Source: Desulfocapsa sp. (GTDB taxonomy: Bacteria; Desulfobacterota; Desulfobulbia; Desulfobulbales; Desulfocapsaceae). Taken from it: a stretch of DNA of 14,636 nucleotides. The stretch spans positions 1 to 14,636 of the forward strand of contig JAOZLI010000034.1 in the NCBI GenBank assembly GCA_029934915.1. Reading direction: 5' to 3'. Below are positions 1 to 14,636 of the stretch, one piece after another. The notes under the pieces are model-generated. The model was not told the DNA's origin. It saw only the letters and a list, made by a program, of their open reading frames with translations, and did no database searches. The translations under genes and the position numbers were made by a program. Each line of letters begins with the position of its first letter. Positions within the stretch are counted from its first letter, which is position 1.

Positions 1-736
1 GATCATGGCGTATCATCTGCAGATCACCGCCATACATATTCTGAATCAACTCACCAGTCAGTGCGCTGGTGGGGTGAATCACAACTTTATTATTGACACA
101 GGCAATACGTTTAAAAAATGTGGAGGCAAAGCCCACTTCATGAGTCACCATAAGAATGGTCATCTTTTTATTAAGATCGGTGAGCAGATCAAAGAACTTC
201 GTCTCTGCAGTGTGATCAATATTGGCGGTGGGTTCATCGAGAATAATAATATCCCCGCCAGTTGCCAGAGCCCGGGCAATAAGCACTCTCTGCCGCTGCC
301 CTCCTGACAAAGCAGAGAAAGGTTTTTCTGCATATTGTCCCAGATCAACTTTTTCAAGAGCAGCCATTGCTATCTCTTTATCAGAGGCCGAATATCTGCC
401 GCTAAAAGATGTTCCAAGTCGGCCCATACGAACCACTTCCTTTACCGATATTGGAAAAAAGGGGTCAAAACTTGCGTACTGTGGAACATAGCCCATTCGC
501 AATCTGGCCTGCCGGGGTGTACCACCAAAGACCCTGACTTCTCCCTTATCCGGAGTGAGTAAACCGAGGATCATTTTTATCAGGGTTGTTTTCCCCCCGC
601 CATTGGGCCCAACAATACAGATTGAATCCAGAGGATAGATATCCAGATTCACATCGGTGAGCACCAGATTTTGTTCGTAGCTGAAACTAAGATCCTGAAT
701 TGCCACTATTGGTATGGAGGATTCGTTTGACTGCAT
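1..736 (-). CDS. znuC: Zinc/manganese ABC transporter ATP-binding protein (ZnuC-like), 3' end beyond the window
   Basis: Cytoplasmic ATPase that would power metal uptake with ZnuA and a membrane permease. The minus-strand frame stays open from an ATG at 736 to the left edge (245 codons), so the stop is outside. It shows a Walker A motif GPNGGGKTT (residues 43-51), a Q-loop Gln about residue 86, the ABC signature LSGGQ (143-147), Walker B ending in LDEP (166-169) and an H-loop MVTHE near residue 200. Only a short tail is missing compared with ~250-residue ZnuC proteins. It begins 12 bases after the znuA stop, so the two are surely cotranscribed. The substrate (Zn rather than Mn) is inferred from the His-rich partner next door. 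The ribosome binding site is weak (AGGT about 10 bases upstream). Confidence 0.93.
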   Translation of the reverse strand, partial: MQSNESSIPIVAIQDLSFSYEQNLVLTDVNLDIYPLDSICIVGPNGGGKTTLIKMILGLLTPDKGEVRVFGGTPRQARLRMGYVPQYASFDPFFPISVKEVVRMGRLGTSFSGRYSASDKEIAMAALEKVDLGQYAEKPFSALSGGQRQRVLIARALATGGDIIILDEPTANIDHTAETKFFDLLTDLNKKMTILMVTHEVGFASTFFKRIACVNNKVVIHPTSALTGELIQNMYGGDLQMIRHD

Positions 737-748
737 AGTATGATTTAC

Positions 749-1624
749 CTATCGGCTCAAAGCAGAATGAATGTTACGGGAGATATCAAGCAAATTTTCA
801 ACCACATTCTCCGCGAGTGGGTTTAAGGGTAAAACCTTCGCACCAGTGGCCTGAGCCACGACTTGCGCGCTTCTAGGATCAAACTGTTCCTGAACAAAAA
901 GAACCTTCACTTTTTCCTTTTTGGCTTTTGCTATAAGTGCTGCCAACTGCTTCGGTGTGGGAGATTTCCCCCCGACCTCCACTGCTTCCTGGTGCAGATT
1001 ATAACTTCTTGCAAAATAGGCAAAGGAGGGATGGAAGACATAAAAGGTCGCACCTGCGAAGGGAGCGAGTTCTTTTTGGATTACCCGATCTAACTCGTCC
1101 AGTTCACCAACAATACTTTCCAGGTTCTTTTTATAGAGCTGTTCGTTCATTGGATCCACAGAGCTCAACGCCTCTACCATATTCGCAGCCATGATTTTCA
1201 AATTCGCTGGCGCAAGCCATACGTGAGGATCCAGGACCGCGTGTTTTCCGCCATGATGATCATGATCTTGCAAAGGGACTTTCTCAATGGACCTGACAGA
1301 ATTAACCACCTGCAGAGACTGTACGGATTCTTCCAGCTTGTGGACAAAGATATGTTCAAATTCCATATCCACGGTGAAAAACACTTTGGCCTGTGACAAG
1401 GCCATAACCTGTTTACTCGTGGGTTGAAACAGATGGGGGCTTTGCCCTTCTCCAACCAGGACATGCGTTTTAACATAGCCCCCCCCCAGCCTATCCACTA
1501 AATACTTTTGCGGAGGAATAGAAACAAACACCTCCAGAGGTGCCGCAGCAGCCAATGTTACCCAAAACGACAAAACACAGACACTCAGGGCAACAGACAG
1601 AGTAATTTTTATAATTTTATTCAA
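749..1624 (-). CDS. znuA: Zinc ABC transporter periplasmic solute-binding protein (ZnuA-like)
   Basis: Exported metal-binding protein of the cluster A-I/ZnuA family that delivers Zn(II) to the ABC importer. Numbered from the proposed start (291 aa), there is a signal peptide at about 1-28 ending LAAAA. Likely metal ligands are His64 (GQSPHLFQ), His134 (DPHVW), His198 (FHPSF) and the acidic residue in the QEQFDPRS segment near 246-249. A short His-rich loop (DHDHHGGKH, 120-128) sits where zinc-specific proteins carry theirs. No ATG lies in a sensible place: the only in-frame ATG (1729) is deep inside the aquaporin gene. I therefore choose TTG at 1624, which gives a normal signal peptide and overlaps the aquaporin stop by 8 bases. 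TTG at 1630 is an alternative. Rare start plus overlap suggests translational coupling. Confidence 0.9.
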
Positions 1625-2312
1625 CTTCAAACCATCGGTAAACGATACCGGCAAGTAACGCTCCGACAAGAGGAGCCAGCCAGAAAAGCCACAATTGAGA
1701 CACGGCCCAACTTCCCTGAAATATAGCAACTGCAGTACTTCTTGCAGGATTTACAGATGTATTCGTCACGGGAATACTAATAAGATGAATAAGGGTAAGA
1801 CCAAGACCGATGGATATTGGTGCAAATCCCTGGGGTGCACGCTTATCCGTTGCTCCCAGAATAATCATAAGAAACATAAAGGTCATAACAATCTCGGTGA
1901 CCAATGCCGCAACCATACTGTATCCACCTGGTGAATGGGCGCCGAAACCGTTAGCAGCAAAGCCCCCGGCAGTCGCATCAAAACCAGCCTGCCCTGAGGC
2001 AATAACATACAACACAGCAGCTCCACCAATTCCACCTGCAACCTGTGCAGCAACATATGGCCCCAGCTCTGTCACAGAAAACCTGCCACCGATACAAAGC
2101 CCTAGAGAAACGGCTGGATTCAAATGGCAACCGGAAATATGACCAATGGCAAAGGCCATCGTTAAGACAGTAAGACCAAAAGCAAAAGAGACACCAAGTA
2201 AGCCAATACCTACATCAGGAAATGCGGCGGCAAGTACGGCACTGCCACAGCCTCCCAGTACCAACCAGAATGTTCCAAGACTCTCAGCAGCTAATTTTTT
2301 TACTAATGTCAT
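1617..2312 (-). CDS. aqpZ: Aquaporin Z water channel
   Basis: Six-helix inner-membrane water channel of the MIP family, 231 aa, the same length as E. coli AqpZ and very similar to it throughout. Both NPA boxes are intact (65-67 and 188-190). The selectivity filter matches the water-specific form: Phe45, His176, Thr185, Arg191. Small residues rather than glycerol-type ones fill the filter, so glycerol facilitation is unlikely. The start at 2312 is chosen over an ATG at 2348 because GGGG lies about 9 bases upstream of it and because it matches family length. The gene is first in a run with znuA and znuC. Its stop (TAA, 1617-1619) lies inside the start region of znuA. Why a water channel leads a zinc-uptake operon is not obvious. 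Confidence 0.95.
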
Positions 2313-2333
2313 TTGTTGTTCCCCTGTTATTAT

Positions 2334-2356
2334 CATCTTACATTCCATAACATCTC
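2334..2356. promoter_or_regulatory. Possible Zur-type operator half-site
   Basis: The + strand at 2347-2356 reads ATAACATCTC, a 9/10 match to the right half (ATAACATTTC) of the enterobacterial/gammaproteobacterial Zur palindrome. It covers the predicted transcription start of the zinc operon, a good place for repression. The left half (2334-2343) matches poorly, so this is a half-site at best. Zinc regulation is expected from gene content; the operator itself is weakly supported. Confidence 0.25.
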
Positions 2357-2359
2357 ATA

Positions 2360-2388
2360 AGGTATATCAATTCGCAAGATATTGTCAA
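2360..2388 (-). promoter_or_regulatory. Probable sigma-70 promoter for aqpZ-znuA-znuC
   Basis: Read on the minus strand, a perfect -35 TTGACA (2388-2383) is followed after 16 bases by TATACC (2366-2361), a 4/6 match to the -10 box. Transcription would begin near 2353, giving a leader of about 40 bases before the AqpZ start at 2312. No other good promoter is seen inside the three-gene run. Confidence 0.5.
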
Positions 2389-2461
2389 TTATACTCTTTT
2401 TTATTTCCACCTCAGAAAATTGAAACACCCAGCCAGGTACCACCGCGTGACACTTTTTTTC

Positions 2462-2490
2462 TTGATATTACCTTTAGGAATACTTATCAT
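2462..2490 (+). promoter_or_regulatory. Sigma-70 promoter for the DVU0772-like gene
   Basis: TTGATA (2462-2467), a 17-base spacer and TATCAT (2485-2490) form a near-consensus sigma-70 promoter. The predicted start of transcription near 2497 gives a ~65-base leader. It is divergent from the aqpZ promoter; together they account for most of the 250-base gap between the two genes. Confidence 0.6.
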
Positions 2491-2563
2491 AGAATGATGA
2501 TTACGACAAATGTATTGTTCAAGAGTCACCCTGAATCCTTTAACCCAAAACAGGAGATATCTT

Positions 2564-2959
2564 ATGTTGAGCGTCAAACAGTTAAAGAAAGACCGGACAT
2601 TAGTGAACAATATCGATTGGGCAATGACCCCCGAAAAGGCAGTTGAAATGTATCTGGAATGGGGAACAGGCTGGATACGCGGTAACGATTTTGTTTCATC
2701 TGCCGATGACGAATCGTTCTACTTTGTCATTTTTGACTGGGAAACGGATCCTCCCGTTGTGACACTTCTCCACCGAACCCTGGAGGGAGCCGACGAACTG
2801 GCAAAGATCCAGGTTCCTCAAGAATTGTTTGATGCCTCCTGCAAAGAAGATGGGTACAGACCCGGCGGCACGGTGCATCCACTGAACTTAAAGCTGAAAG
2901 AGTGGGTGAATAGCTTGATTCATGGTCCGGCCGTTGAGTTTTTTAATACTGAACATTGA
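2564..2959 (+). CDS. Small uncharacterised protein, DVU0772-like
   Basis: A 131-residue soluble, acidic protein with no signal peptide, membrane segment or metal motif. The N-terminal third (MLSVKQLKKDRTLVNNIDW, then a segment with MTPEKAV and YLEWG) resembles, from memory, a family of short uncharacterised proteins in sulfate reducers named after Desulfovibrio DVU0772. Many aromatic and acidic residues follow (around 35-65), and an EWV-containing tail closes the protein. The start at 2564 is set by AGGAG about 8 bases upstream; an in-frame ATG at 2510 has no such site. It stands alone with its own promoter and faces the antiporter gene. Function unknown; its presence supports a Desulfobacterota or Desulfovibrio-type host. 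Confidence 0.75.
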   Translation: MLSVKQLKKDRTLVNNIDWAMTPEKAVEMYLEWGTGWIRGNDFVSSADDESFYFVIFDWETDPPVVTLLHRTLEGADELAKIQVPQELFDASCKEDGYRPGGTVHPLNLKLKEWVNSLIHGPAVEFFNTEH

Positions 2960-2981
2960 TAGATTCGTAAAAACCTACTCT

Positions 2982-3064
2982 ACCATGAAGCGCATGAAGG
3001 GCATGAAGAAAAGAATAACAGCGAATCAGTCTTTTAACTTCACGTTCTTCATGCCCTTCATGGT
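2982..3064. repeat. Inverted repeat built of 9-bp CATGAAGNN units
   Basis: Three tandem ATGAAG blocks spaced 9 bases apart (2984-3008) are followed after a 34-base loop by their reverse complement. The 18 bases at 2993-3010 pair perfectly with 3045-3062. It lies between two convergent genes, so it could act as a bidirectional terminator, although no long T-run follows on either side. A diverged copy of the right arm lies at 11544-11563 (16 of 20 bases identical). This suggests a dispersed repeat rather than a plain terminator. Confidence 0.75.
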
Positions 3065-3075
3065 TTAAGGTTTAT

Positions 3076-3116
3076 ATGAAAGTAACTCCGCCAGACGGGT
3101 GGAGATCAACTTTCAT
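3076..3116. repeat. 41-bp hairpin between convergent genes
   Basis: ATGAAAGT (3076-3083) pairs perfectly with ACTTTCAT (3109-3116). Inside, CTCCgCC pairs with GGgTGGAG around an AGAC loop. It sits 35 bases beyond the antiporter stop on the minus strand and may end or stabilise that transcript. No T-tract follows. Confidence 0.4.
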
Positions 3117-3150
3117 GTTTCGTTGTGCCCGCTGTTGCCGGCCATGGGTG

Positions 3151-4764
3151 TTACTTCTTAGAGGAATCTGAAAATTCAGTATTAGCCAAAAAATCATTCC
3201 GCGCATATTCGGCATATGCGGCTCCCACCCCTGAAAAAACATTATAGACTGAATGAACCCCCATGTTTTTCAGTTCGGTCACCTGATCCTCGTATCTAGC
3301 CGTTGCTGCCAAAAAACCTTGATATCCAGCCTTCTGTAACTGCTCAACAGCCACAATATTGGCCTCATGCTGTGGCATGCATAGAGCTACAAAGCGCACC
3401 TGCTCTGGACTGATTTTATCCCAAAAATCAAGATCAGTCACATCCCCAAAAATAACATCTCTACCTGCATCAGTATGCTGCCCGACAACATCTTTACAAC
3501 TATCGAGTCCCACGACTTTTCTGCCGTAGGTCTCCTTTGCTGCTTCATAGGTTCCTGTGCCGATTCTCCCCATGCCAAAGACAAGAAGATCGGCATCCAA
3601 CTCAATGGGAAGCTCTACCGGATGAACGCCAGGTTTTTCACAACGCTTTAAAAAAGTTCTGAACCGGGCATAAATATCATACACAGAGCTGTTTAATGGA
3701 GCCCCCCCGACAAATGAAAACGTAAGGGCCATGGCCACCAGTATCAACCACGAGCCATCAATCCAGCCCGACTTCACCCCAACCACCGCCACAATCAATC
3801 CGAACTCACTGTAATTGGAAAGTGGTACTGTGGTAAAAAAAGCAGACCGTGCCCGAAAATTAAACATGCTCAACAGTCTGAAAAAGAGCCAGCTTTTAAA
3901 GATAATACAGAGGCAGAGAATTGCAGCAGCCACCAATATCTTGGCATCTGGCAAGCCAGAAAGGCCAATACTTAGAAAGAATGCCACTAGAAAAAGGTTC
4001 TTAAATCCCATCAATGTGTAACCCAGTTCTTTGGCCTTAGGATGGGTTCCTATCAATATCCCCATAACCAGTGCGCCGAGATCAGGTTTTAACCCCACCA
4101 ACTCAAAACTTCCTGCCCCTGCGACAATGGCCAGAAAGAGCCCCAGCAGAGCTAACAATTCACCGTGATCGCTTAATTCCAAAAGTTTAAAAAAGAGAGG
4201 ACGTAAGAAATAGAGCAGAGGCAAAGCCAGGGCCCAGACAGAAGGGATTTTCCCGGCTGATATGGTTAAAAATACCACGGCAATAATATCCTGCATAACC
4301 AGAATACCCATGGCAGTTGCACCGTGCAGCGCATTCAGTTCGCCACGATCTTCAAGAATTTTAATGGCAAAAACGGTGGAAGAAAAAGAGAGAGCGAAAC
4401 CAATCAGAACAGCAGTAACAAATGGAACACGACCAAGAAGAGGAGTCAAAGTGAGGAGGAAAACAACCCCGCCCAATACTACTGTACTGATCATCATATG
4501 CAGACTGGTGCCAAGCCAGATTTCCCGGCGCAGCAGACTCTTCACGTCCAGTTTTAAACCGATAGTAAACAGGAGTAACGTTACACCCAAATCTGCCAAT
4601 TCCTGCAGCGCTGCCCCCTGCTGACGAATGCCAAGGCCATTCAAAAGGAAGCCTGCTACCAAGAAACCTATAAGAGGCGGAAACTTGCCAATCTTCGCTA
4701 TAAAACCACAAATGAAGGCGAAGGATATCCAGGCACAGTCCACTAACCAGATTGGGGTTTCCAT
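3151..4764 (-). CDS. KefB/KefC-type cation:proton antiporter with RCK_N nucleotide-binding domain
   Basis: Inner-membrane monovalent cation:proton antiporter of the CPA2 family, 537 aa. About twelve hydrophobic helices fill residues 1-370, including the conserved ALSFSSTVFAIKILEDRGE stretch and the VMQDI helix with the transport-associated Asp159. A cytoplasmic RCK_N/TrkA-N Rossmann domain follows, with GMGRIG at 397-402 and an acidic residue (GLD) at the end of the second strand, suggesting NAD(H) sensing. There is no RCK_C domain, and the protein ends soon after. It resembles YbaL/KefB more than Na+-specific NhaA. The likely role is K+ efflux or pH control; the ion cannot be told from sequence. 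The ribosome site is modest (GGA about 9 bases upstream). The remnant of a polyferredoxin gene lies 32 bases upstream on the same strand. Confidence 0.9.
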   Translation of the reverse strand: METPIWLVDCAWISFAFICGFIAKIGKFPPLIGFLVAGFLLNGLGIRQQGAALQELADLGVTLLLFTIGLKLDVKSLLRREIWLGTSLHMMISTVVLGGVVFLLTLTPLLGRVPFVTAVLIGFALSFSSTVFAIKILEDRGELNALHGATAMGILVMQDIIAVVFLTISAGKIPSVWALALPLLYFLRPLFFKLLELSDHGELLALLGLFLAIVAGAGSFELVGLKPDLGALVMGILIGTHPKAKELGYTLMGFKNLFLVAFFLSIGLSGLPDAKILVAAAILCLCIIFKSWLFFRLLSMFNFRARSAFFTTVPLSNYSEFGLIVAVVGVKSGWIDGSWLILVAMALTFSFVGGAPLNSSVYDIYARFRTFLKRCEKPGVHPVELPIELDADLLVFGMGRIGTGTYEAAKETYGRKVVGLDSCKDVVGQHTDAGRDVIFGDVTDLDFWDKISPEQVRFVALCMPQHEANIVAVEQLQKAGYQGFLAATARYEDQVTELKNMGVHSVYNVFSGVGAAYAEYARNDFLANTEFSDSSKK

Positions 4765-4796
4765 AATTTTTCCGTTTTAATTGATAATACTGAAAA

Positions 4797-5203
4797 TCAC
4801 TTGAGGACACCTTGAAAAGAAAGGACATCTTTAGGACAGTTCGTCACACAATTTGAGCAGCGTATACAATCAATACTGGGTACCTGGGCTGGTCCTTCAT
4901 CTTTCTTAAAACTACCGGGATAGGTGGAGATTGGACAGACACGCATACATTTTTTACATTGTACACAACTATCGTCCACGGTAAGCAGATAGGTATTCCC
5001 GGAACTCACCCCCCGCATAGCCCCCATGGGGCAAAGCCACCCACAGTAAAAACGACCGCGCTGGCTGGCTAAATCATAAATAGCCGCCCACTAGTCCACC
5101 TCTTCTCCCTGTGAGTTTACTGGCAAATTTCCATAATATCAAGTTCAAGCCAAGGAGGGGGGCAGTATCTATTAACTATTTCTTTTCTTTTCTTTTTCAT
5201 CAT
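4797..5203 (-). pseudogene. Frameshifted polyferredoxin (NosR/NapH-like YCGWLCP protein)
   Basis: The last frame (from about 5090 to the stop at 4797) reads WAAIYDLASQ, RGRFYCGWLCPMGA, then two ferredoxin motifs: CVQCKKCMRVCP and CIRCSNCVTNCP. The YCGWLCP motif is typical of membrane-associated electron-transfer polyferredoxins. It lies upstream of the only ATG of that frame (5027), and a TAG stands at 5091-5093. Just upstream in a second frame is LLGLNLILWKFASKLTGRRG followed by GL, which joins naturally to WAAIYD if one base is dropped near 5092. A third frame starts with two ATGs at 5203 and 5200 and runs to a run of six Gs (+ strand 5157-5162), where a second one-base shift would join it. 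Two apparent insertions, one in a homopolymer, mean decay or sequencing error. If intact it would bind four iron-sulfur clusters. Confidence 0.65.
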
Positions 5204-5295
5204 TGTGAACTTCAATAGATGCACGTGGCATCCGATTTACCGTGCATTACTGTTGTTTTCGAAGCCTTACCCTGCTACCCACGAAGGAGATCCCC

Positions 5296-6173
5296 ATGTC
5301 TATGCCATCAGTTATGCGTATGTTTCCAGCCGTTCTATTCCTGATCATATCTTCCACATCACCTGTTGCTGCCGAAATTATTGTGAGTACGGTGGCACAA
5401 CTTGTTGCTGCAGTAAATAACACGCAAAATGGCGAAAATCGTACCATCCTTATTGCTGATGGTAATTATCCATTAAATGGCAGCTATCTTCGTATCGCAG
5501 TAAACGATGTTACAGTAAAATCACAAAGTGATTGCCATCATACTCGGGTGCTACCTACGGGAAAATCAACACCTGGGTTTTTGAGCATAATGGAGGTTTA
5601 CGATCCGGCTGGCCACAACTTGCAAACAGTTCAGATTCAGCCTATGGCGTATTTAACGATAACACCTGGGGTGACGATCTAAATAATGATGGTCAAAAAG
5701 ATATTATCGTTCCATCGGATGTGACCAGAATCTGTGCCTACAGCCCTAATGGCGTTCAACTGGCTGCCAGTTCCATTTATGGTGATAAAAAATGAGGTGT
5801 AAGGGTTCGGTAAGAAATATCGCACTGAAAGCTACAGAACCAACTTCGCCCTCGGAGCCGGAGTAATTGTTGATGTGGACGGCGACGGCAACAAAGAAGT
5901 GGTTATTACCGACAATATGTACAACTGCAACCTGGTCACCCGCCGGGAAAATATATGGCACTGTTTATTTTCAATGCAGATTGCAGCAGGTTCAAAAAAG
6001 GTATCTGGAACTGGGAACAGGCCCCCATAAACACCATCCATTCTGGATTTGTTGCCTACGACCTGCCAGGCTCTGCCGGGGCGAAAATTCAATGGCAAAG
6101 CGGGCACAATCGTGGTGGAAAGTTAGACAAAAATGGTAGTGTACCACCCTTAATCTATTTACTTCTGCATTAA
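5296..6173 (+). pseudogene. Broken exported beta-helix / FG-GAP repeat protein
   Basis: A strong ribosome site (GAAGGAG) precedes ATG 5296. The first frame gives a signal peptide (ending SPVAA) and a parallel beta-helix beginning (AQLVAAVNNTQNGENRTILI to VTVKSQS, to about 5535). From 5532 a second frame carries an FG-GAP/VCBS propeller segment (GWPQL, then DDLNNDGQKDIIV) until TGA at 5793. A third segment in the first frame (about 5807-5940) carries another calcium-type loop, VDVDGDGNKEVVIT. A fourth (about 5940-6173) reads GKYMALFIFNAD to a final TAA. Each join needs a shift, and the switch from beta-helix to propeller suggests an internal deletion as well. The ancestral product was probably a large secreted or surface protein. 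No intact reading is possible. Confidence 0.75.
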
Positions 6174-6206
6174 TTCTGATAGATTCGGGCAAAAAAAGCA
6201 CCCACC

Positions 6207-6836
6207 ATGAAAATAGTAGCATTCAGCGACACCCACACACTCCACCAGAAAGTGGAAATTCCAGACGGAGATCTGCTCATCTTTGCAGGGGATATGTCTG
6301 TCTGTAAAACCTCACAGGATGTGACAGGCTTTAACAACTTTCTGAAAACACTGCCACACACATATAAAATTGTCGTTGGCGGTAATCATGATCACCTTCT
6401 GGCATCCTCTCCTGAACTGGGACAGGAATTGCTGCAGGATGCCATTTATCTCCAAGATTCGTTCACCATAATCAATGGAATAAAGATCTACGGTTCACCG
6501 TGGCAACCAACCTTCAACACCAAAGCCTGTGATGCTTTTGCCCTACCACGAGGAAAAGCAATACGCGAGAAATGGAATCTGATCCCAGACGATACAGATA
6601 TCCTTATCACTCACTCTCCGCCCTGCGGCATCATGGACGAAGATGGTGGAGTTTCCCATGGCTGCTCCGACCTGCTCGAACGGGTACTGCAGATCAAGCC
6701 ACGAGTACATATATTTGGACATATCCACAACCATAACGGCATCACAAATATTGGCAAAATTCGCTTTATTAACTGCAATGTAAAAGCAAAAAAGGGAATC
6801 GTGCGCCCTGCTCTTGCATTTGATTATTATTCATAA
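6207..6836 (+). CDS. Calcineurin-like metallophosphoesterase (MPPED/YfcE-type)
   Basis: Cytoplasmic dimetal phosphoesterase of 209 aa with the full set of family motifs: D8-x-H10 (SDTH), GD at 28-29, GNHDH at 59-63, THSPP with His136, and GHIH with His172 and His174. These residues normally hold two Mn, Fe or Zn ions and attack phosphodiesters or phosphomonoesters. The compact size and the NHDH/THSPP spacing recall the mammalian MPPED1/239AB group and bacterial relatives. The natural substrate is not predictable. There is no signal peptide. The start has no clear Shine-Dalgarno sequence (GGGCAAAAAAAGCACCCACC precedes it), so expression may be low or from a short leader. It is the first intact gene after the decayed region. 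Confidence 0.88.
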   Translation: MKIVAFSDTHTLHQKVEIPDGDLLIFAGDMSVCKTSQDVTGFNNFLKTLPHTYKIVVGGNHDHLLASSPELGQELLQDAIYLQDSFTIINGIKIYGSPWQPTFNTKACDAFALPRGKAIREKWNLIPDDTDILITHSPPCGIMDEDGGVSHGCSDLLERVLQIKPRVHIFGHIHNHNGITNIGKIRFINCNVKAKKGIVRPALAFDYYS

Positions 6837-6892
6837 TAGAATAGCAATAAAATTTCACAATACCCTTCTTCCCTCAAATGGAGTCTTTTTTT

Positions 6893-8392
6893 ATGACTGA
6901 ACAGTCACAGGTTCTTCTTGGAGCTAACAAAACTGAGAAACAGCTCTTTCTTGATCCTGCCATGGCAAATCGGCATGGTCTTATCACTGGTGCCACTGGA
7001 ACTGGAAAGACCGTAACTCTGCAAGTTCTGGCAGAAGCATTTTCTCGTCTTGGCGTTCCTGTTTTTTCGGCCGATGTTAAGGGAGATCTTTCAGGTATTG
7101 CACGTCCCGGAATGCCTCACAAAAAAATAACTGAACGTCTGAATCGAATGGGTGTGACAGACCATCCCTTTGAAGGCTGCCCCACCCTGTTTTGGGATAT
7201 TGAAGGAAAAACAGGGCATCCAATCCGAACCACCATTTCTGAAATGGGTCCGGTATTACTTGCGAACATCCTTGAATTAAACGATACCCAGACCGGAATT
7301 TTACATGTAGCCTTTGCCATTGCAGATGACCAGGGATTACTCCTGCTCGACTTGAAAGATCTACGCTCCATGCTCAACTGGATGGCAGAAAACCGTAAAA
7401 AGCTGGCCAGTGAATATGGAAACATCGCCAGCCAGTCAGTTTCTGCCATTCAACGTAAACTGCTTGTTTTAAGAGAGGCTGGAGGGGATCAATTTTTTGG
7501 AGAACCAGCTCTTAGCATTCAGGATCTGATGCATGCTGACTTTTCAGGCCGCGGAGTAGTGAGCCTTCTTGATGCATCATCTCTCTATTCTAATCCTAAA
7601 ATATACACCACATTCCTCCTCTGGCTTCTTTCTGAACTCATGGAAGAACTGCCTGAACAAGGTGATGCACCGTTACCAAAACTTGTGTTTTTTTTCGATG
7701 AAGCCCATCTTCTTTTTAAGAATTCGCCAAAGGCGTTGATTGACCGTATTACACAGGTGGTGCGCCTGATCCGCTCTAAGGGAGTTGGGATTTTCTTTAT
7801 CAGCCAATATCCGAATGATATCCCGGATGAAGTGCTGGGACAACTTGGTTGTCGTATTCAACATGCACTCCGGGCCTTTACTCCTAAAGATCAAAAAGCA
7901 GTGCGGGTAGCGGCTCAGACCTTTCGGCAAAACCCTGAAATAGACACAGAAGAAACCATCACCAGCCTGGGACTTGGGGAAGCTCTTATCTCAACTCTGG
8001 ACAGCAGGGGAACGCCCACCATGGTTGACTGGTGCCTGCTCGCACCACCTCATTCCCAAATCGGCCCCATCACAACTGATGAAAAAAGTACACTAATGGA
8101 TCGTTCCCCCATTAAAGGACGATATGAGATCATGCTTGACCGTGAATCAGCCTACGAACGCCTGGGCAAGCGTGAAGCAGAGCTTATCAAAAAACGTCAG
8201 GAAGCTACAGCAGAGCTGGAACGGGAAAAGGCTGCGAGCAAAGCTGAGAGACAGAGCAGCAAGAGCCCTCGCAGCAGAAGGCAAAGCCCTGGTGAAGCCT
8301 TTGTAAAATCAATAGCCAGAAGCTTTGGTTCTCAAATCGGCCGAACTCTTGTCCGTGGAATATTGGGATCTTTAATCGGCAAAAAAAGATGA
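6893..8392 (+). CDS. HerA-like ATPase, YjgR/DUF853 family
   Basis: P-loop ATPase of the HerA/FtsK superfamily, 499 aa, close in length to E. coli YjgR (about 500 aa). Walker A GATGTGKT lies at 33-40, Walker B is FFFDEAH with Asp269 as the key acid, and a sensor-like FFISQYPND follows about 35 residues later. The C-terminal ~80 residues are highly charged (about 430-465) and end in a basic SIARSFGSQIG...GILGSLIGKKR tail, as in YjgR proteins. The start at 6893 is chosen because GGAG lies 9 bases upstream; ATG 6878 has no such site. The cellular job of this family is unknown. No NurA or other nuclease partner is nearby. Its TGA overlaps the ATG of the next gene (ATGA), so the pair is translationally coupled. 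Confidence 0.92.
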   Translation: MTEQSQVLLGANKTEKQLFLDPAMANRHGLITGATGTGKTVTLQVLAEAFSRLGVPVFSADVKGDLSGIARPGMPHKKITERLNRMGVTDHPFEGCPTLFWDIEGKTGHPIRTTISEMGPVLLANILELNDTQTGILHVAFAIADDQGLLLLDLKDLRSMLNWMAENRKKLASEYGNIASQSVSAIQRKLLVLREAGGDQFFGEPALSIQDLMHADFSGRGVVSLLDASSLYSNPKIYTTFLLWLLSELMEELPEQGDAPLPKLVFFFDEAHLLFKNSPKALIDRITQVVRLIRSKGVGIFFISQYPNDIPDEVLGQLGCRIQHALRAFTPKDQKAVRVAAQTFRQNPEIDTEETITSLGLGEALISTLDSRGTPTMVDWCLLAPPHSQIGPITTDEKSTLMDRSPIKGRYEIMLDRESAYERLGKREAELIKKRQEATAELEREKAASKAERQSSKSPRSRRQSPGEAFVKSIARSFGSQIGRTLVRGILGSLIGKKR

Positions 8393-8751
8393 ATAACTCC
8401 AGGAAACAATCCTGCCCAGGTTGCAGCGGCACAGGCCAGGTCAGCTGGTTTGGTGGTGTCAGCAGGTTTCAGTTTACCTACTCCGACTGCCCCGAATGCA
8501 ATGGAACCGGGTTCTTAGATAACTCAACAGCCAAACAATTACAGCCTAAAGGAGAGCCAATCATGTGGCAAATCAAAGTAGATACAGAAAAATGTGATGG
8601 CTGCGGAGAATGCGCAGAGAGCTGTCCTGGCGAGGTATACGAACTTGTCGAAAACAAAGCCACCGTGGTCAACGAAGAGGAATGTCATGGTTGTCATACC
8701 TGTGAAGATGTTTGCGAGGCAGATGCCATTACCGTTGAAGAAAAAGAGTAG
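8389..8751 (+). CDS. Zinc-knuckle protein fused in frame to a dicluster ferredoxin
   Basis: A 120-residue ORF that starts inside the stop codon of the HerA-like gene. Residues 1-45 carry two DnaJ-type CxxCxGxG knuckles, CPGCSGTG (9-16) and CPECNGTG (34-41), which would bind one zinc ion. After a short linker the frame runs without a stop into a complete 62-residue ferredoxin (from Met59) with motifs CDGCGECAESCP and CHGCHTCEDVCE, for two [4Fe-4S] clusters. There is no good Shine-Dalgarno at 8389, so translation would depend on coupling. Because the ferredoxin has its own strong start at 8563, the cell may make the knuckle-ferredoxin fusion, the ferredoxin alone, or both. Confidence 0.75.
   Translation: MNNSRKQSCPGCSGTGQVSWFGGVSRFQFTYSDCPECNGTGFLDNSTAKQLQPKGEPIMWQIKVDTEKCDGCGECAESCPGEVYELVENKATVVNEEECHGCHTCEDVCEADAITVEEKE
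8563..8751 (+). CDS. Dicluster [4Fe-4S] ferredoxin (internal start)
   Basis: A 62-residue acidic electron carrier of the bacterial 2[4Fe-4S] type, common as a stand-alone gene in sulfate reducers. Cluster I motif CxxCxxCxxxCP and cluster II motif CxxCxxCxxxC with Glu in place of the usual Pro. AAAGGAG (8548-8554) sits 8 bases before ATG 8563, the best ribosome site in this neighbourhood. MWQIKVDTEKCDGCGEC is a typical family beginning. This independent start is the reason to annotate it apart from the longer fusion that contains it. Confidence 0.8.
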   Translation: MWQIKVDTEKCDGCGECAESCPGEVYELVENKATVVNEEECHGCHTCEDVCEADAITVEEKE

Positions 8752-8777
8752 ACAAACTCCCACGAAGTGGTAATAGT

Positions 8778-8804
8778 AAGGATAATCATTTACGAATCAT
8801 CCTT
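8778..8804. promoter_or_regulatory. 27-bp dyad upstream of the permease gene
   Basis: AAGGATAAT and ATCATCCTT frame a 9-base centre: six perfect outer pairs, one mismatch, then two more pairs. The left half resembles a Fur/DtxR-type half-site (GATAAT). It ends 17 bases before the permease ATG at 8822, so it could be an operator for the permease-rhodanese-glucokinase run or a short hairpin after the ferredoxin gene. No T-run follows. Confidence 0.4.
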
Positions 8805-8821
8805 AACGTACAGGCAATGCT

Positions 8822-10060
8822 ATGAAATCACCCATCCTGCTGTCACTTGCTCTTGGATGTGGCTGGCTGTTTTCACCGGAAGTATTAGTTATCACGGGAA
8901 ACAGTGCGGGAAATCTCGGCCTGCTGGCCATCCCTTTCCTGGCATTGGCAGCGTTTCTTTTTTCTACCTGTGGCAAAACTATAAACAGTGTTCAACTAGA
9001 ATCGGAAAGAAATAATGAACTGCAGATTCTTCAGCAAAGCATAGGAGCAATTCCAGCAGCCAGCCTCACTCTTGCCGCCTGCTTTCCCTTACTTATTCTT
9101 GCTGCCACTGCACTGCTTGTCACATCAGGATATACGTTTAATGAGGTTTTCCTCTACTGGTTTCCCAATTTTGGTTTTGCTTTTTTACTCCTTGGCCTGC
9201 TCACACTGGTGCAATTTCTTCCCATGAAGCTGCTGCTGCGTGTACAGCTTTTTTGTGTAAGCCTTGCCGGTGGTGGAATTTTGATCCTTGCGCTTTATGG
9301 TTCTGGAACATCTGTCATCCCCCTAAGTGCTCTATTACATATGCCGGAGCCACTCTCTCAGGCAGCGTTTTCCTCCACAATGCTCCTGTTTCTTTTTGTG
9401 GGATCCAATCTTTTCCATGGACAACAGGGACGTTGTTCTCTGGTTCCACGCCTTGCATTCTTTGTTTTTGCCCTGTGGATGTTTGCCTCTCTCAGCCATG
9501 TGAATCCTGAACGCCTCGCCAGCTCTACTATTCCTTATATGACCGCATCAAGAAGAATCCTTGGAGATACCGGTCGCCAGATTATGGGTGTTGTGGTTAT
9601 CAGTGGAAGTTGTGCCGCAGTTATCGGACTGACACTACTCTGCAGAGAAAAACTCACAGATCTTGTGCAGGCTCTTATGGCTCCCGGGTTCCTGGCAAAG
9701 GGTGATGGACGGTGGGTACTGCCTCCCCTTGTGGCTATTGCGACTGGTATTTGTATGGCCACAGGACTTGCAGGAGATGAAATTCTCGAAACACTTTTAA
9801 GAAGTGCGCTGCTGCTCTGGCTGCTCTATTACAGTGCAGTGAGTCTGGCCGCTATTCATGTATTGAGAAAAGAACAGCAAACGGTTTCCCTGCCTGCGCG
9901 TGTTGCTCCTCTTCTTCTCTTTGCAGGATTATTAGCCGTTCTGCTCACCAATCCGCAGCGCTCTGAAATGTTCGTAATTATAGTATGTTTACTTGTTGCC
10001 AGCAGTGCTCTTGCAGCCCTCTGGTTTTTTATCAACTCTGAGAGAAAGGAAACACCATGA
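8822..10060 (+). CDS. APC-superfamily-like 12-TM permease
   Basis: An integral inner-membrane protein of 412 aa with about twelve hydrophobic helices. The first helix carries a glycine-containing break (LGCGWLFSP, residues 11-19), like the substrate-binding unwound helix of amino acid/polyamine permeases, and the overall length fits the APC superfamily. No residue set identifies the substrate. The ATG at 8822 follows AGG by 8 bases. The gene ends in ATGA overlapping the next start, so it is coupled to the exported rhodanese. This suggests a sulfur- or selenium-containing substrate, but that is inference only. An operator-like dyad lies just upstream. Confidence 0.7.
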   Translation: MKSPILLSLALGCGWLFSPEVLVITGNSAGNLGLLAIPFLALAAFLFSTCGKTINSVQLESERNNELQILQQSIGAIPAASLTLAACFPLLILAATALLVTSGYTFNEVFLYWFPNFGFAFLLLGLLTLVQFLPMKLLLRVQLFCVSLAGGGILILALYGSGTSVIPLSALLHMPEPLSQAAFSSTMLLFLFVGSNLFHGQQGRCSLVPRLAFFVFALWMFASLSHVNPERLASSTIPYMTASRRILGDTGRQIMGVVVISGSCAAVIGLTLLCREKLTDLVQALMAPGFLAKGDGRWVLPPLVAIATGICMATGLAGDEILETLLRSALLLWLLYYSAVSLAAIHVLRKEQQTVSLPARVAPLLLFAGLLAVLLTNPQRSEMFVIIVCLLVASSALAALWFFINSERKETP

Positions 10061-10446
10061 AAAGATTCCTCCCCTTATTGCTACTCTTCTTCTTTGCGGG
10101 AGCATCGCTTTTGCATGCCTCGGACGTTCCCACCGTAAGCAAAGATGAACTCAAAGCACAACTCGACACAGGTACCATTGTTCTGGACGTACGTTCAGGC
10201 CGTGACTGGAGCTCCAGTGAATTCAAAATTAAAGGTGCCATCCGTGCCTCCGGAGACGATATCGGCAAATGGTCAAAGGATTACAAAAAAGACCAGAAAC
10301 TAGTGCTCTACTGCGCCTGACCTAACGAAGCAACCAGTGCCAGTTTGGCACGGCAGCTTATGGACCTGGGTTTCAGTGACGTTTCCGCCTTAAAAGGTGG
10401 CTGGCGTGATTGGTTTAGATCAAAATATCCTGTGGAAGAACGATAG
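10057..10446 (+). CDS. Exported rhodanese with UGA-encoded selenocysteine
   Basis: Periplasmic single-domain sulfurtransferase, 129 residues if TGA at 10318-10320 is read as selenocysteine. A signal peptide ends LHA at residue 21. The CDC25-like rhodanese features follow: VLDVRSGRDW, then the strand LVLYC with Cys86 at the catalytic position. Sec88 comes two residues later, then PNEATSASLARQL, a FSDVSALKGGW helix-strand and a TAG at 10444-10446. Cysteine homologues that I recall read YCACPNEATSA, so TGA replaces a conserved Cys. The frame downstream of TGA is rhodanese-like to its natural end, which argues against a plain nonsense mutation. A SECIS-like hairpin follows. The gene overlaps the permease stop by four bases (AGGA ribosome site), and its stop touches the glucokinase ribosome site. 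Confidence 0.87.
10328..10359 (+). promoter_or_regulatory. Bacterial SECIS-like hairpin
   Basis: Directly downstream of the in-frame TGA, GTGCCA (10337-10342) pairs perfectly with TGGCAC (10346-10351) around a GTT loop. Four more pairs, AAGC (10328-10331) with GCTT (10356-10359), close the stem below a small internal loop. The loop G lies 22 bases after the TGA, within the usual 16-37 base range, and falls in the first two loop positions as bacterial SECIS models require. It would bind SelB and direct Sec-tRNA to the TGA. Confidence 0.75.
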
Positions 10447-10456
10447 GATACAAAAC

Positions 10457-11476
10457 ATGGCCCTTCTTTTAGCAGCAGATATTGGCGGCACCAAAAGTGA
10501 TCTGGCAATTATCGATCTTTTGCAACAGCCAGGTGCGGATACGGTACGCCATAAGCGCTACAGGAACAGAGAATTCACAGATTTTGAAACTATTCTGGCG
10601 GATTTCCTCAGCAACTCTCCGGTGCCGGAATATGGGTGCCTGGGAGTTGCCGCTGTTATCAAAAACGACACTGCAAATCTCACCAATCTGGACTGGAGCC
10701 TGAGCCAGGAAACTCTCCAGGAACAGTTCGGCCTCAAAAAGGTCTGGCTGATCAACGACCTCACCGCAGTCTGCGCAAGTCTGCCTCTACTTCGGAAAGA
10801 TGAACTTTTTACAATCCAGACAGGCCAGCCGGCAAACCACGGGATCCGGGCGGTGATTGCTCCGGGAACAGGCCTTGGCGAAGGTTTTCTCCTCAACCGG
10901 GAAAACTGCCTGTTTCCACAGGGCTCAGAAGGTGGCCATTGTGATTTTGCTCCACTCAATAAAGAACAGGAAAAACTTCTGTCTTTTATGCAGCAAAAGT
11001 ACAGACCTGTAAGCTATGAGCTCCTCTGTTCCGGGCTTGGTATTCCTCATATCTTTGACTATTTTTCCACAACAGATATTCCACGGGATGCAAAACGTTT
11101 TGCTCTCATCACTGCAGCAATTGACAGGACACCCTTTATTGTCGAAGGAGCACATGCCAAAACGGTCTGCCCACTCTGTGCAAAAACACTTTCTGTATTC
11201 CTGGAGATTCTTGGCTCCGAGGCCGGCAATCTGGCTCTTAAAACATATTGTGTCGACGGACTTTTTATCGGTGGTGGAATATTACCCAGACTCGTGGAAC
11301 ATGTATCCTTTACACCGTTTTTAGCAAACTTTCGCCAGAAAGAGAAAATGACAAAACTCATGGAGTCGATCCCTGTTCATATCATAATGAAAAAGGATGC
11401 TGCTTTACTGGGAAGTGCGCACTATGGACGCCACCTTTACCAATCTTACAAATTGCCAACTACTGATAACCACTAA
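10457..11476 (+). CDS. glk: Glucokinase
   Basis: Cytoplasmic enzyme that phosphorylates glucose with ATP at C6, first step of glycolysis or glycogen reuse. It has 339 aa, against 321 in E. coli Glk. ASKHA-fold motifs are present: phosphate loop LAADIGGTKS with Asp8 and GGT 10-12, the catalytic Asp101 in LINDLTA, the second phosphate motif APGTGLGEG (135-143), the sugar-binding EGGHCDF segment, and the adenosine motif FIGGGILPR near residue 275. The start at 10457 is chosen for AGGAT 6-10 bases upstream and for family length; an earlier in-frame ATG (10397) lies in the rhodanese gene. Only ten bases separate it from the selenoprotein stop, so it belongs to the same operon. Confidence 0.93.
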   Translation: MALLLAADIGGTKSDLAIIDLLQQPGADTVRHKRYRNREFTDFETILADFLSNSPVPEYGCLGVAAVIKNDTANLTNLDWSLSQETLQEQFGLKKVWLINDLTAVCASLPLLRKDELFTIQTGQPANHGIRAVIAPGTGLGEGFLLNRENCLFPQGSEGGHCDFAPLNKEQEKLLSFMQQKYRPVSYELLCSGLGIPHIFDYFSTTDIPRDAKRFALITAAIDRTPFIVEGAHAKTVCPLCAKTLSVFLEILGSEAGNLALKTYCVDGLFIGGGILPRLVEHVSFTPFLANFRQKEKMTKLMESIPVHIIMKKDAALLGSAHYGRHLYQSYKLPTTDNH

Positions 11477-11543
11477 AAAAATACTGATTCAGCAATACTC
11501 TACAATCGTTCGCGGGGGCAAACTCCTACAGCAAATATAATGG

Positions 11544-11563
11544 TCTTCGTATCCTTCGTGGTT
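11544..11563. repeat. Diverged copy of the ATGAAG/CTTCGT 9-bp repeat
   Basis: TCTTCGTATCCTTCGTGGTT here matches TCTTCATGCCCTTCATGGTT at 3047-3066 in 16 of 20 bases and keeps the 9-base period. No matching left arm is found nearby, so it is a half element. It lies in the 229-base gap between glucokinase and the chemotaxis gene (11477-11705). Otherwise I see only A/T-rich sequence there, with no clear terminator and no convincing sigma-28 or sigma-70 promoter. Confidence 0.5.
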
Positions 11564-11705
11564 GAAAAGTTTTGACGAGTTTATCAGTACTAAAAAAAAT
11601 CCACAAAAAAGAGTGGTTTCAATTTCACTTTTTAACCTTGTTTGTGATACACTTTTTTTATGGATAAGGTTTTTATGATGCTTTTCTCTATCACAACCAT
11701 GGAAA

Positions 11706-13703
11706 ATGATGAAGTCTCTATCACTGAAAATTAAAATCATGGGCATGACAGCCCTGCCCATAATTCTGTTCCTTCCTGTTTTTTTCTTCATCTATAATCA
11801 GGGAACGAGTGAACTGAAGCATGAACGTAACCGCAGCATGCATATTGGTGATACCATTGCGTTGGACGGTGCCATATCCAATCAGCGCCCCGTCCTTGAA
11901 AAGGCAATAACCAATATCCTGAACACCGATGAAACGGTGAGCTTTATCTCTAACCCTGAGGACAGCAACGCCAAAATGGTGATAGAAGGGATGTTCCTTT
12001 CGCTGCAAGAGCAGGGTATCTCCAGACTTGTAGCATACAACGCTAATTTCAAGGTTCTTTTGCAACAGCAAAAAGAGAATCTCCCAGCCTATACGACAAA
12101 ACTCCCGACTACCCTTGAACCCCTTTTCAAGCAGTCTGAAAAAGACTTCGAATATCATTATTTTTTCAGGGCTCCCACACCTGCAGAACCACTTTTCCCC
12201 GTTGCCTATAGTGTGATTACTGTTATCACTGATTTTGACGACAACACTGTAGGCTATGTAGAACTCACTCTGGATTCTGCACCATTAGTGAAACAAATTG
12301 CAGAACGTACCACGAATACAGTAATGCTGTACTCTCCCGCACACCATGCAATCAGCTTGTCGAGCAACAGTGAAATGGCAAAAGAATTATTGCCTACCCT
12401 GCCAGAAGAGTTAGAGAGTAAATCCTTTATACAAACCACCACTAAGTCTGCTGACCTTCTCACCGATATCCTGCCCATCAAAGGGTATGATGAAAAAATT
12501 ATTGCCATGGCACTGATAGTAAGCGATGCCACCAGCTTTATGCAGTCAGAAAAGAAACGATGGCTTTTTGGTATGGGCACAACATTCTTCATTATCCTTC
12601 TCTCTCAGGCAATTGTCTACTTTGCCGTAACAAAAGGAATTATTGCCCCAATCAAGCAGGTTATCAATTTCGCATCCACCCTTGCATCCGGAGATTCATC
12701 CTCCTTGCTTACAATGAAAGCGGGTAAAGAACTGACCAGGATGGCAGAGGCATTAAATACCATGGCAAGTCATATCCAGGAACGTTCCAGCCAGGCCGAA
12801 GCAATAGCAGCGGGTAATCTGGCAGTGACCATTGAGGTCTATTCGGATAAGGACGTTTTAGGAAAATCACTGAGTGCTATCACCAGTAACATTGGCCAGA
12901 TCATCCGTGATATCAGTGACAATGCGGATAATCTCCTGCAAGCCTCTCAACAGGTCACAGATCTTTCCGGTGATCTGGAGATTACCTCACATCTGATTGA
13001 AGCCAGAGCGCAAGAGATGGAAATCTCTTTTGACTCTGTGAAAGACAATCTTCAAATTGTGGCAGATGGAACGGAAAGGATGTCTCTTTCCATCAGAGAA
13101 ATCAGTGAAAATACCGAAACAAGTAACCAGACTACAGATGAAGCAAAACAGGTGGCTCAGGAATCAGCAGATATTATTCAACAGTTGAACAAAGTAGTTA
13201 TCTCCATCGCCAAAGCCAATCAATCCATCACCGAATTTGCAGACCAGACAAACCTACTGGCGCTCAATGCGACAATCGAGGCGGCCCGTGCCGGAGAAGC
13301 CGGCAAAGGATTTGCTGTTGTTGCTTCAGAAGTAAAAGAACTGGCAAGTCAAAGCATGACAACTGCCAAAGCCATCCGCTCAGACATTGATAACATCCAG
13401 ATATTTACCGAAAAAGCTGTGACTTCTGCCGGCAATATTTCAGAAGTTATCGAACAGGTTCGTGAATCATCGCAGATTATCGCCACTGCCGTCAATGAGC
13501 AGACAGCTGTGGCCGATGAGATTTCCAGCAACACAATAAGTGCCCATGACACAACCGGAGGATTTTCCAAAAATATCGAAGATATCTCCACGGCAGCCAA
13601 TATAACCACAGACACCATGGCTGCGCTCAATGACAGTGCCAAAGAACTTGAAACCATTGCTCAGAAATTACGTAACAAAGTAGAGGCATTTACATTGCCG
13701 TAA
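11706..13703 (+). CDS. Methyl-accepting chemotaxis protein
   Basis: Membrane chemoreceptor, 665 aa. TM1 lies about 10-30, a large periplasmic sensor about 31-284, TM2 about 285-308 and a HAMP domain about 309-362. A second HAMP-like stretch ([20 protein letters not shown]) follows. A long coiled-coil signalling domain extends to the C-terminus. The CheA/CheW-binding hairpin tip is intact and highly conserved at about 510-550 ([19 protein letters not shown], then [15 protein letters not shown]). The sensor has no recognisable ligand motif; [19 protein letters not shown] recalls Cache-type strands. There is no C-terminal pentapeptide for CheR tethering. The start ATG 11706 has only a weak GGA upstream. 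It is probably cotranscribed with the rhodanese that follows 34 bases later. Confidence 0.95.
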
Positions 13704-13737
13704 CTGAACCATTGAACCGATACCACCAGGAGACCAC

Positions 13738-14310
13738 ATGACGAACAAACTGCTCAAACCCGTGTTTCTGCTTGCTCTCACATTCTTCTTTCTTTCCATT
13801 ACAAATTCATTGATGGCAGGAGAAGTTGGGAAAGGAAAGATCCCTGCAGATCAACTATCAAAAACATTCAAAACTCTGGCATGGGGAGCACCTATCTGGG
13901 ATGTACCGGAAGCCGTAGCAGCGTTAAAGACAGGAAAAGACACCCTCTGGGTAGATACCCGTCCAGAGAGTTTCTTTAAAAAAGGAACGGTGGCTAATGC
14001 GGTTTTACTTATCTATAATAAAAAAGACAAAGAGGAAAACACCTTAACGCCGGAATCATTGGAGAAAGCAATGGCTGACAAAGGAATAGCAAAGGAGAAT
14101 GCGACAATCGTCTTTTTCTGCCAGGGACCTAAATGCCATCGCAGTTACAACGCCAGCTTTGCCGCTATTACAGAATGGGGCTATGCTCCTGAACAAATTG
14201 TCTGGTTCCGTGATGGATACCCGTTCCTCTTCAAGGAAGTACAGGAGAATGCCAAACTCAAACGAAAAGCAAAACGCTATATCAGCGACGCTGGTGTTAA
14301 ACAGCTATAA
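13738..14310 (+). CDS. Exported rhodanese-like protein with a C-x4-C active loop
   Basis: Periplasmic protein of 190 aa with a signal peptide ending SLMA (residue 27), then a rhodanese domain. WVDTRPESFFKKGTVANAV is the substrate-entry region. IVFFCQGPKCHRS is the active loop with catalytic Cys128 and a second Cys133. EQIVWFRDGYPFLF closes the domain. AGGAG lies 5 bases before the start. The second cysteine inside the loop could form a disulfide with the first, suggesting thiol redox or sulfur-carrier work rather than plain thiosulfate cleavage. It follows the chemoreceptor by 34 bases and is closed by the terminator at 14351. Confidence 0.88.
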   Translation: MTNKLLKPVFLLALTFFFLSITNSLMAGEVGKGKIPADQLSKTFKTLAWGAPIWDVPEAVAALKTGKDTLWVDTRPESFFKKGTVANAVLLIYNKKDKEENTLTPESLEKAMADKGIAKENATIVFFCQGPKCHRSYNASFAAITEWGYAPEQIVWFRDGYPFLFKEVQENAKLKRKAKRYISDAGVKQL

Positions 14311-14350
14311 GCTCTCCTTCCTCCCACAGCATTCACTTCCCTGAATGCTC

Positions 14351-14390
14351 AAAACGGTGCCATGGATTTCATCCATGACACCGTTTTTTT
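14351..14390 (+). terminator. Rho-independent terminator of the MCP-rhodanese unit
   Basis: AAAACGGTG(C)CATGGAT pairs with ATCCATG(A)CACCGTTTT around a TTC loop, 16 pairs with a single mismatch, followed by a T-run to 14390. The A-run on the left arm would serve as the T-tract on the other strand, so it may also stop minus-strand transcription. A smaller hairpin, GCATTC/GAATGC, precedes it at 14329-14348. Confidence 0.9.
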
Positions 14391-14395
14391 CTTAT

Positions 14396-14521
14396 GTAAC
14401 AGTTCGCCAGCACTCCACCTTTGTCCATTTCGGTCTGCTCACATATAACTACATATGCTACGCAGCCCCAAATGAACAGGTAAGCGTAGACTCCGAATGT
14501 AAAGCACTCGCAAACTGTTAC
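14396..14521. repeat. 126-bp nested palindromic element
   Basis: Outer arms GTAACAGTT (14396-14404) and AACTGTTAC (14513-14521) pair perfectly and continue imperfectly for about ten more bases. A second set, CATTT (14426-14430) with AAATG (14470-14474), and an apical CATAT (14442-14446) with ATATG (14453-14457) fold inside. No coding potential is seen. The form suits a small non-autonomous mobile element or an extragenic palindromic repeat. Confidence 0.6.
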
Positions 14522-14584
14522 TGAGCAGGGTTACCATAAACGTCTGTTTTGCTAATGAACTTACAACAAAATTGCGAATAACAG

Positions 14585-14636
14585 TTATTCTGCCATTGCG
14601 TTCATAGCTCTTTTAGGATCGGCTTCAACTTTTTTC
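14585..14636 (-). CDS. Possible C-terminal end of a gene entering from the right
   Basis: On the minus strand an open frame enters from the window edge and ends at TAA (14585-14587). It reads KVEADPKRAMNAMAE, which has ordinary coding character. Only 16 codons are visible, so the product cannot be named, and chance is not excluded. Its orientation would make it convergent with the rhodanese gene, which fits the two-way terminator between them. Confidence 0.3.
   Translation of the reverse strand, partial: KKVEADPKRAMNAMAE

Follow-up and report, generated by a model that had tools for sequence, protein, structure and literature searches.

A predicted exported selenocysteine rhodanese of Desulfocapsa sp. 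and its frequent neighbour, an APC-fold transporter gene

We analysed a stretch of 14,636 nucleotides from Desulfocapsa sp. (assembly GCA_029934915.1, contig JAOZLI010000034.1, positions 1 to 14,636 of the forward strand), referred to here as a whole as the window. Its gene at 10057-10446 very probably encodes an exported, single-domain rhodanese of the family NF041203, in which an in-frame TGA is decoded as selenocysteine (Sec). The gene directly upstream encodes a membrane transporter with APC fold, and this pairing is possibly a new element. The features concerned are the following.

10057..10446, + strand: rhodanese with signal peptide, 129 amino acids if the TGA is read as Sec and 87 if it is a stop (translation, PF00581, NF041203)
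10057..10119, + strand: predicted signal peptide MKRFLPLLLLFFFAGASLLHA, with a hydrophobic 12-mer and a cleavage site placed by eye
10312..10314, + strand: Cys86 (TGC), first residue past a strand and canonical rhodanese Cys by strand register (secondary structure of the model, profile alignment)
10318..10320, + strand: TGA, predicted to be decoded as Sec88, conserved in orthologues and named-genome loci
10337..10351, + strand: hairpin GTGCCA-GTT-TGGCAC resembling a selenocysteine insertion sequence (SECIS), loop G at 10343 (fold, covariation, locus counts, codon constraint)
8822..10060, + strand: partner gene for an APC-fold membrane transporter of 412 amino acids, its stop overlapping the rhodanese start in ATGA (10057-10060)

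Translation of the frame from the ATG at 10057 reveals a single TGA, at codon 88 within the motif LVLYCAUPNEATS (C86-A-U88), after which the rhodanese frame runs on to a TAG at 10444-10446, as the initial annotation had stated. The protein scored 51.8 bits with the Pfam profile PF00581 (cut-off 22.2) and 168.7 bits with the NCBIfam equivalog model NF041203, rhodanese_LYCAU (curated cut-off 115), residues 14-129 aligning to model positions 10-126 of 126. Membership in the rhodanese superfamily is thus supported by both profile and fold. Since NF041203 fits, the gene, judged by its sequence, adds a member to a family already known and does not found a new selenoprotein family. In a 2026 review (PMC13188914), Table 1 groups the ‘Rhodanese-like domain-containing protein form 3, NF041203, CxU’ with the predicted families and credits the CxU form to its reference 13, Zhang & Gladyshev 2005; the form likewise appears in PMC9312934. 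The main novelty claim of the initial annotation therefore falls, as this kind of protein had already been catalogued. Within the full-text literature searched, which did not extend to Zhang & Gladyshev 2005 and 2007 or Haft & Tolstoy 2025, NF041203 was named in PMC13188914 only. With its score over the cut-off, LYCAU motif and Sec codon, the window's protein showed no protein-level difference from form 3. At the level of the locus, the descriptions of NF041203 in passages of PMC13188914 do not mention a transporter partner, unlike what we found here. The other Sec rhodaneses of Table 1 (forms 1, 2, 4 and 5/TsoB) share a rhodanese domain with Sec but carry the motifs UxxS, UxxG, UxxG and UxxxxU instead of CxU.

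Conservation of the TGA was followed in two sets. In 22 of 56 searched relatives, the window's own genome included, we found a strong match with a single TGA; 16 of the 20 same-genus genomes are among them. All 22 orthologues carry the TGA at the same codon, 21 reading C-A-U-P and one C-S-U-P. The second set comprises 80 loci from named genomes, the best of 283 that were confirmed, where the Sec codon is TGA in 79 and TGT (Cys) in the remaining one. Absence of the TGA from close strains, which the initial annotation had named as a possible refutation, is therefore not what we observed. The two counts are not independent because 16 loci are common to both sets. Most of the 80 loci bear Desulfo- names or the label Deltaproteobacteria, three are labelled Proteobacteria or Pseudomonadota, and one each is labelled Nitrospiraceae, Nitrospirota and Methylomirabilota. 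Among 103 database homologues, 96 end exactly at YCA, i.e. at the TGA, two end one residue sooner at VLY and five continue. The homologue of Desulfocapsa sulfexigens DSM 10523 (P0013, 89 amino acids) is among the proteins ending at the Sec codon. Viral contigs yielded 17 pattern matches, none of them a relative.

The single Cys form of the 80 loci (L060, protein P0008, from a Desulfatitalea metagenome-assembled genome) reads YCACPNEATS, which is the sequence that the initial annotation had given for relatives. It retains the whole SECIS-like hairpin (L060 464-478) and is placed among Sec forms in the tree with support of 93/82, values that come from few columns and an unsettled bootstrap. Together, retained hairpin and tree position fit a recent change from Sec to Cys. 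The tree was built from 77 of the 80 loci (L125, L115 and L094 were left out; L135, L136 and L138-L145 are also absent). Cys occupies the Sec position in further homologues, namely two C-x-C paralogues and 79 of the 120 best-listed of 2793 cousins, a sample shaped by the chosen query alignment. Trp was found at this site (C-A-W) in the metagenome proteins P0004, P0007, P0009 and P0021, and C-x-W in 13 of the 120 cousins. As L080, which is close to P0007, has a TGA, the C-A-W records are probably TGA codons translated with a code in which TGA means Trp; gene calling of this kind would hide selenoproteins.

In bacteria, a SECIS is a hairpin shortly past the TGA whose apical loop begins with a G. 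The hairpin of the window has six pairs and the loop GTT, and 22 bases separate the TGA from the loop G, which confirms the position and loop type given in the initial annotation. Folding of the 48 bases from the TGA (10318-10365) gave a z of −2.49, with 2 of 200 shuffles folding as well. The five core stem pairs are formed in 77 of the 79 TGA loci; they close a stretch of five bases, the second of which is a G in all 79. Codon identity over the hairpin (codons 93-98) reached 2.69 times the expectation from usage, compared to 1.29 for codons 1-87 and 1.13 for codons 99-129, and the top three six-codon windows of the gene start at codons 93-95 (ratio 2.55-2.94). Pairwise mismatches at codon positions 1, 2 and 3 were.296,.219 and.583 before the TGA and.260,.223 and.567 past the hairpin (both tests on 21 of the 22 rows, L023 left out). 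The coding signal is thus alike on both sides of the TGA, and the hairpin region shows constraint on the choice of codons.

The window's own genome assembly (83% complete, 606 contigs) contains all four selenocysteine genes asked for by the initial annotation, which had treated absence of selB or selC as a refutation. tRNA-Sec scored 71.5 bits (cut-off 47) and was called tRNA-SeC with anticodon tca by ARAGORN; SelA reached 604 and SelD 377 bits. SelB is present as two contig-edge pieces: residues 1-121 are encoded where C571 ends and residues 108-580 where C496 begins. Each piece is below the whole-protein cut-off, and the simplest explanation is one gene cut by an assembly gap. SelD contains one in-frame TGA (L045, G000:C454:77-1018) and is therefore probably a selenoprotein too. 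With stricter filters, 49 of the 56 relatives had a tRNA-Sec match above the cut-off. One of them, G023, had four matches over the cut-off, with 69.1, 62.3, 47.6 and 47.5 bits.

By all sequence tests made except covariation, the gene is a predicted selenoprotein, and several results have to be set against this assignment. Covariation is weak: only one pair changes on both sides (U-A to C-G), in 2 of 22 rows and 6 of the 79 loci, and 210 of 500 shuffles equal the count among the 22 rows. Sliding the structure by −1 or −2 columns gives covariation scores (0.117 and 0.140) as high as that obtained in register (0.114). The proportion of paired cells was 97.7% compared to at most 53% in slid versions, and neither a shuffle (0 of 500) nor a slid version was higher. 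A search against Rfam returned four matches with E of 0.39-0.93, all under the gathering scores and none at the hairpin. A second group of six-codon windows, those that begin at codons 48-50, likewise has raised ratios (1.92-2.24), with no known hairpin there. Furthermore, of the 22 genomes with the TGA gene only 18 had a tRNA-Sec above the cut-off under the stricter filters; G001, G014, G017 and G029, where it is missing, are multi-contig drafts, one of them 98% complete.

A phylum sample of 395 genomes adds that Sec88 is, by sequence comparison, dispensable in some paralogues, because nine hits over the NF041203 cut-off have no TGA. The model exceeded its cut-off in at least 61 genomes with at least 84 hits (at most 10 first-look candidates were scored per genome), of which 75 have at least one TGA anywhere in the hit, eight are without a stop and one has only a TAA. 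The nine hits without TGA, retrieved and aligned together with nine lower-scoring places, comprise two C-x-C forms, five C-x-S forms, one with neither Cys and one C-x-S form with a TAA just before the motif. L131-L135, from the genomes G421, G266 and G349 of one family (f22), are C-x-S paralogues except for L135, which has neither Cys; they may be duplicates that are inactive or have a regulatory role. TGA copies are present as well in G266 and G349.

The TGA could be a plain stop, in which case the product would be truncated to 87 residues or the gene would be decaying. The many database homologues that end at YCA would suit such a reading, as would the in-frame TAA or loss of both Cys in two of the nine paralogues without TGA. 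It conflicts, however, with the coding signature (21 rows) and the protein alignment (22 of 22), both of which continue past the TGA, with the Sec machinery in the genome, and with the AlphaFold2 model, according to which the truncated form would lose the helix and strands after the active-site loop. We regard a plain stop as extremely improbable and rejected this candidate, including a pseudogene, on TGA conservation and coding signal.

The composition of the N-terminus resembles that of a secretory (Sec-type) signal peptide, which bears out the corresponding feature of the initial annotation. Based on simple rules, the most hydrophobic 12-mer has a mean of 2.5 in the window's protein and of at least 2.0 in 77 of 79 loci, Lys or Arg lies near the start in 71 and a small-x-Ala site is present in 75 (of the 80 loci, L125 has no usable start and was left out). 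This suggests that the protein is probably exported past the inner membrane.

In the AlphaFold2 model (predicted local distance difference test, pLDDT, 87.5; Cys put for Sec), strand 82-85 is directly followed by Cys86, and a helix spans 92-103. HMMER also aligns the canonical rhodanese Cys at Cys86. The active-site loop counted from Cys86 is two residues longer than that of GlpE, and it measures six residues when counted from Sec88; the helix register would therefore put Sec88 at the canonical spot. The statement of the initial annotation that Sec lies next to, not at, the canonical Cys consequently holds by strand register and HMMER but not by helix register. GlpE-type single-domain rhodaneses (PDB 1gmx) share the fold and the Cys right after the strand, while the window's protein differs in its signal peptide, longer loop and Sec at +2, at 17-20% identity.

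Compatible with our preferred explanation, Sec88 may itself be the main nucleophile at the canonical position of a longer loop, with Cys86 as helper or resolver, a variant to which we give slightly less than even credence. The six residues from Sec88 to Thr93 correspond to the usual loop length from the helix in the model and GlpE, and position 88 is Cys in 97 of the 120 best-listed cousins, 18 of which keep it beside Ser86. The strand register and the HMMER alignment, on the other hand, make Cys86 canonical, and C-x-S and C-x-A paralogues retain Cys86 alone. The 120 cousins divide into 79 C-x-C, 18 S-x-C, 13 C-x-W and 10 other forms, three of the 120 being C-x-S or C-x-A; hence either position can be the sole Cys. 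One cousin group has Ser86 and a lone Cys88 (YS[TS]CPGDERS; P0252, P0288 and L143 1192-1503), P0252 being named a sulfurtransferase of Geobacter sp.

The partner gene product has an APC fold; no Pfam or NCBIfam model matched the window's copy. PF13520 was detected in 4 of 30 aligned members (the window's copy and 29 of the 51 found), all of which share a conserved block GxxFNExFxxxFPNFxF. In the comparison with the APC amino acid transporters AdiC, y+LAT1 and BasC, this block and the lack of a model match set the partner apart. The transporter gene lies directly upstream on the same strand in 51 of the 80 named-genome loci, with a 4-base overlap in 20 of these 51, and in the tree of 77 loci the paired genes occur across the main TGA clade. 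In the phylum sample, a transporter was found in 12 of 395 genomes and adjoins the rhodanese gene in all 12 cases; the profile was applied at E <= 1e-30 only, with at most four first-look candidates scored per genome, so that copies at other sites may have escaped detection. In the literature searched, with the scope given above, no single paper combined the terms rhodanese, selenoprotein and ‘amino acid permease’. The frequent pairing may be a new clue to the function of the rhodanese.

It is conceivable, albeit improbable in our assessment, that the transporter is merely a neighbour with no functional tie. No upstream transporter was found at 29 of the 80 loci, three of which have less than 330 bases of upstream DNA, and 49 of the 61 phylum genomes with NF041203 gave no transporter match at E <= 1e-30. 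Such independence is at odds with the same-strand arrangement, the overlapping genes, the adjoining copies throughout the 12 phylum genomes and the spread through the TGA clade.

The UGA is very probably decoded by SelB and tRNA-Sec with the aid of the hairpin 17-31 bases past it. For the Sec rhodanese and its partner, the following mechanism may be proposed. The periplasmic Cys86-x-Sec88 pair would handle sulfane sulfur. The selenolate would accept a sulfane sulfur, with polysulfide, thiosulfate or a low-molecular-weight persulfide as donor, Cys86 would resolve the Se-S species to a selenenyl-sulfide under release of sulfide or passing on of the sulfur, and a periplasmic thiol reductant would close the cycle. 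The predicted selenenyl-sulfide pair is plausible; the complete cycle is put forward tentatively. The upstream transporter would move a small-molecule partner across the inner membrane, but that its cargo is cysteine, cystine, a persulfide or another sulfur amino acid is doubtful. Both genes may then form a module of bacteria that disproportionate sulfur and of those that reduce sulfate, in which a dedicated, as yet unassigned transporter and an exported C-x-Sec rhodanese would together channel sulfane sulfur or sulfur amino acids through the periplasm, with Sec accepting and Cys resolving the sulfur; we likewise advance this with reserve.

Alternatively, though this seems rather unlikely, the protein could use its rhodanese scaffold mainly for redox reactions of thiols and disulfides or of peroxides in the periplasm, without sulfur transfer. 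Redox activity is in keeping with a Cys and a Sec spaced two residues apart, and according to passages of PMC9312934 and PMC13188914 most uncharacterised selenoproteins are expected to act in redox processes. Yet the rhodanese fold and active-site loop are kept, and most loci bear Desulfo- names, which fits sulfur chemistry without showing it.

Downstream of the rhodanese gene, one further neighbour was considered.

10457..11476, + strand: glucokinase, starting at an ATG 10 bases past the rhodanese stop (PF02685, 296.8 bits on the open reading frame 10397-11476)

It was rejected as a functional partner since it is the next downstream gene in only 11 of the 80 loci. The window also encodes a second rhodanese-domain protein (13738-14310, + strand; PF00581, 34.7 bits) with an N-terminal hydrophobic segment, the loop FFCQGPKCHRS and a frame without TGA.

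Desulfocapsa sulfexigens grows by sulfur disproportionation; the paper on its genome (PMC3739170) lists nine rhodanese-related proteins, and a word search of it found none that starts with ‘seleno’. In Desulfolithobacter, one rhodanese, of this or another family, is described in a passage of PMC9751629 as detected only under thiosulfate disproportionation. The sequence presented here confirms a widely conserved, predicted-exported selenoprotein that is usually stored in databases cut short at its Sec codon. The pairing with the transporter provides a concrete lead for a family known by sequence alone and is the part worth following. If the module indeed handles sulfane sulfur, it would be relevant to the initial steps of sulfur disproportionation, which are unresolved.
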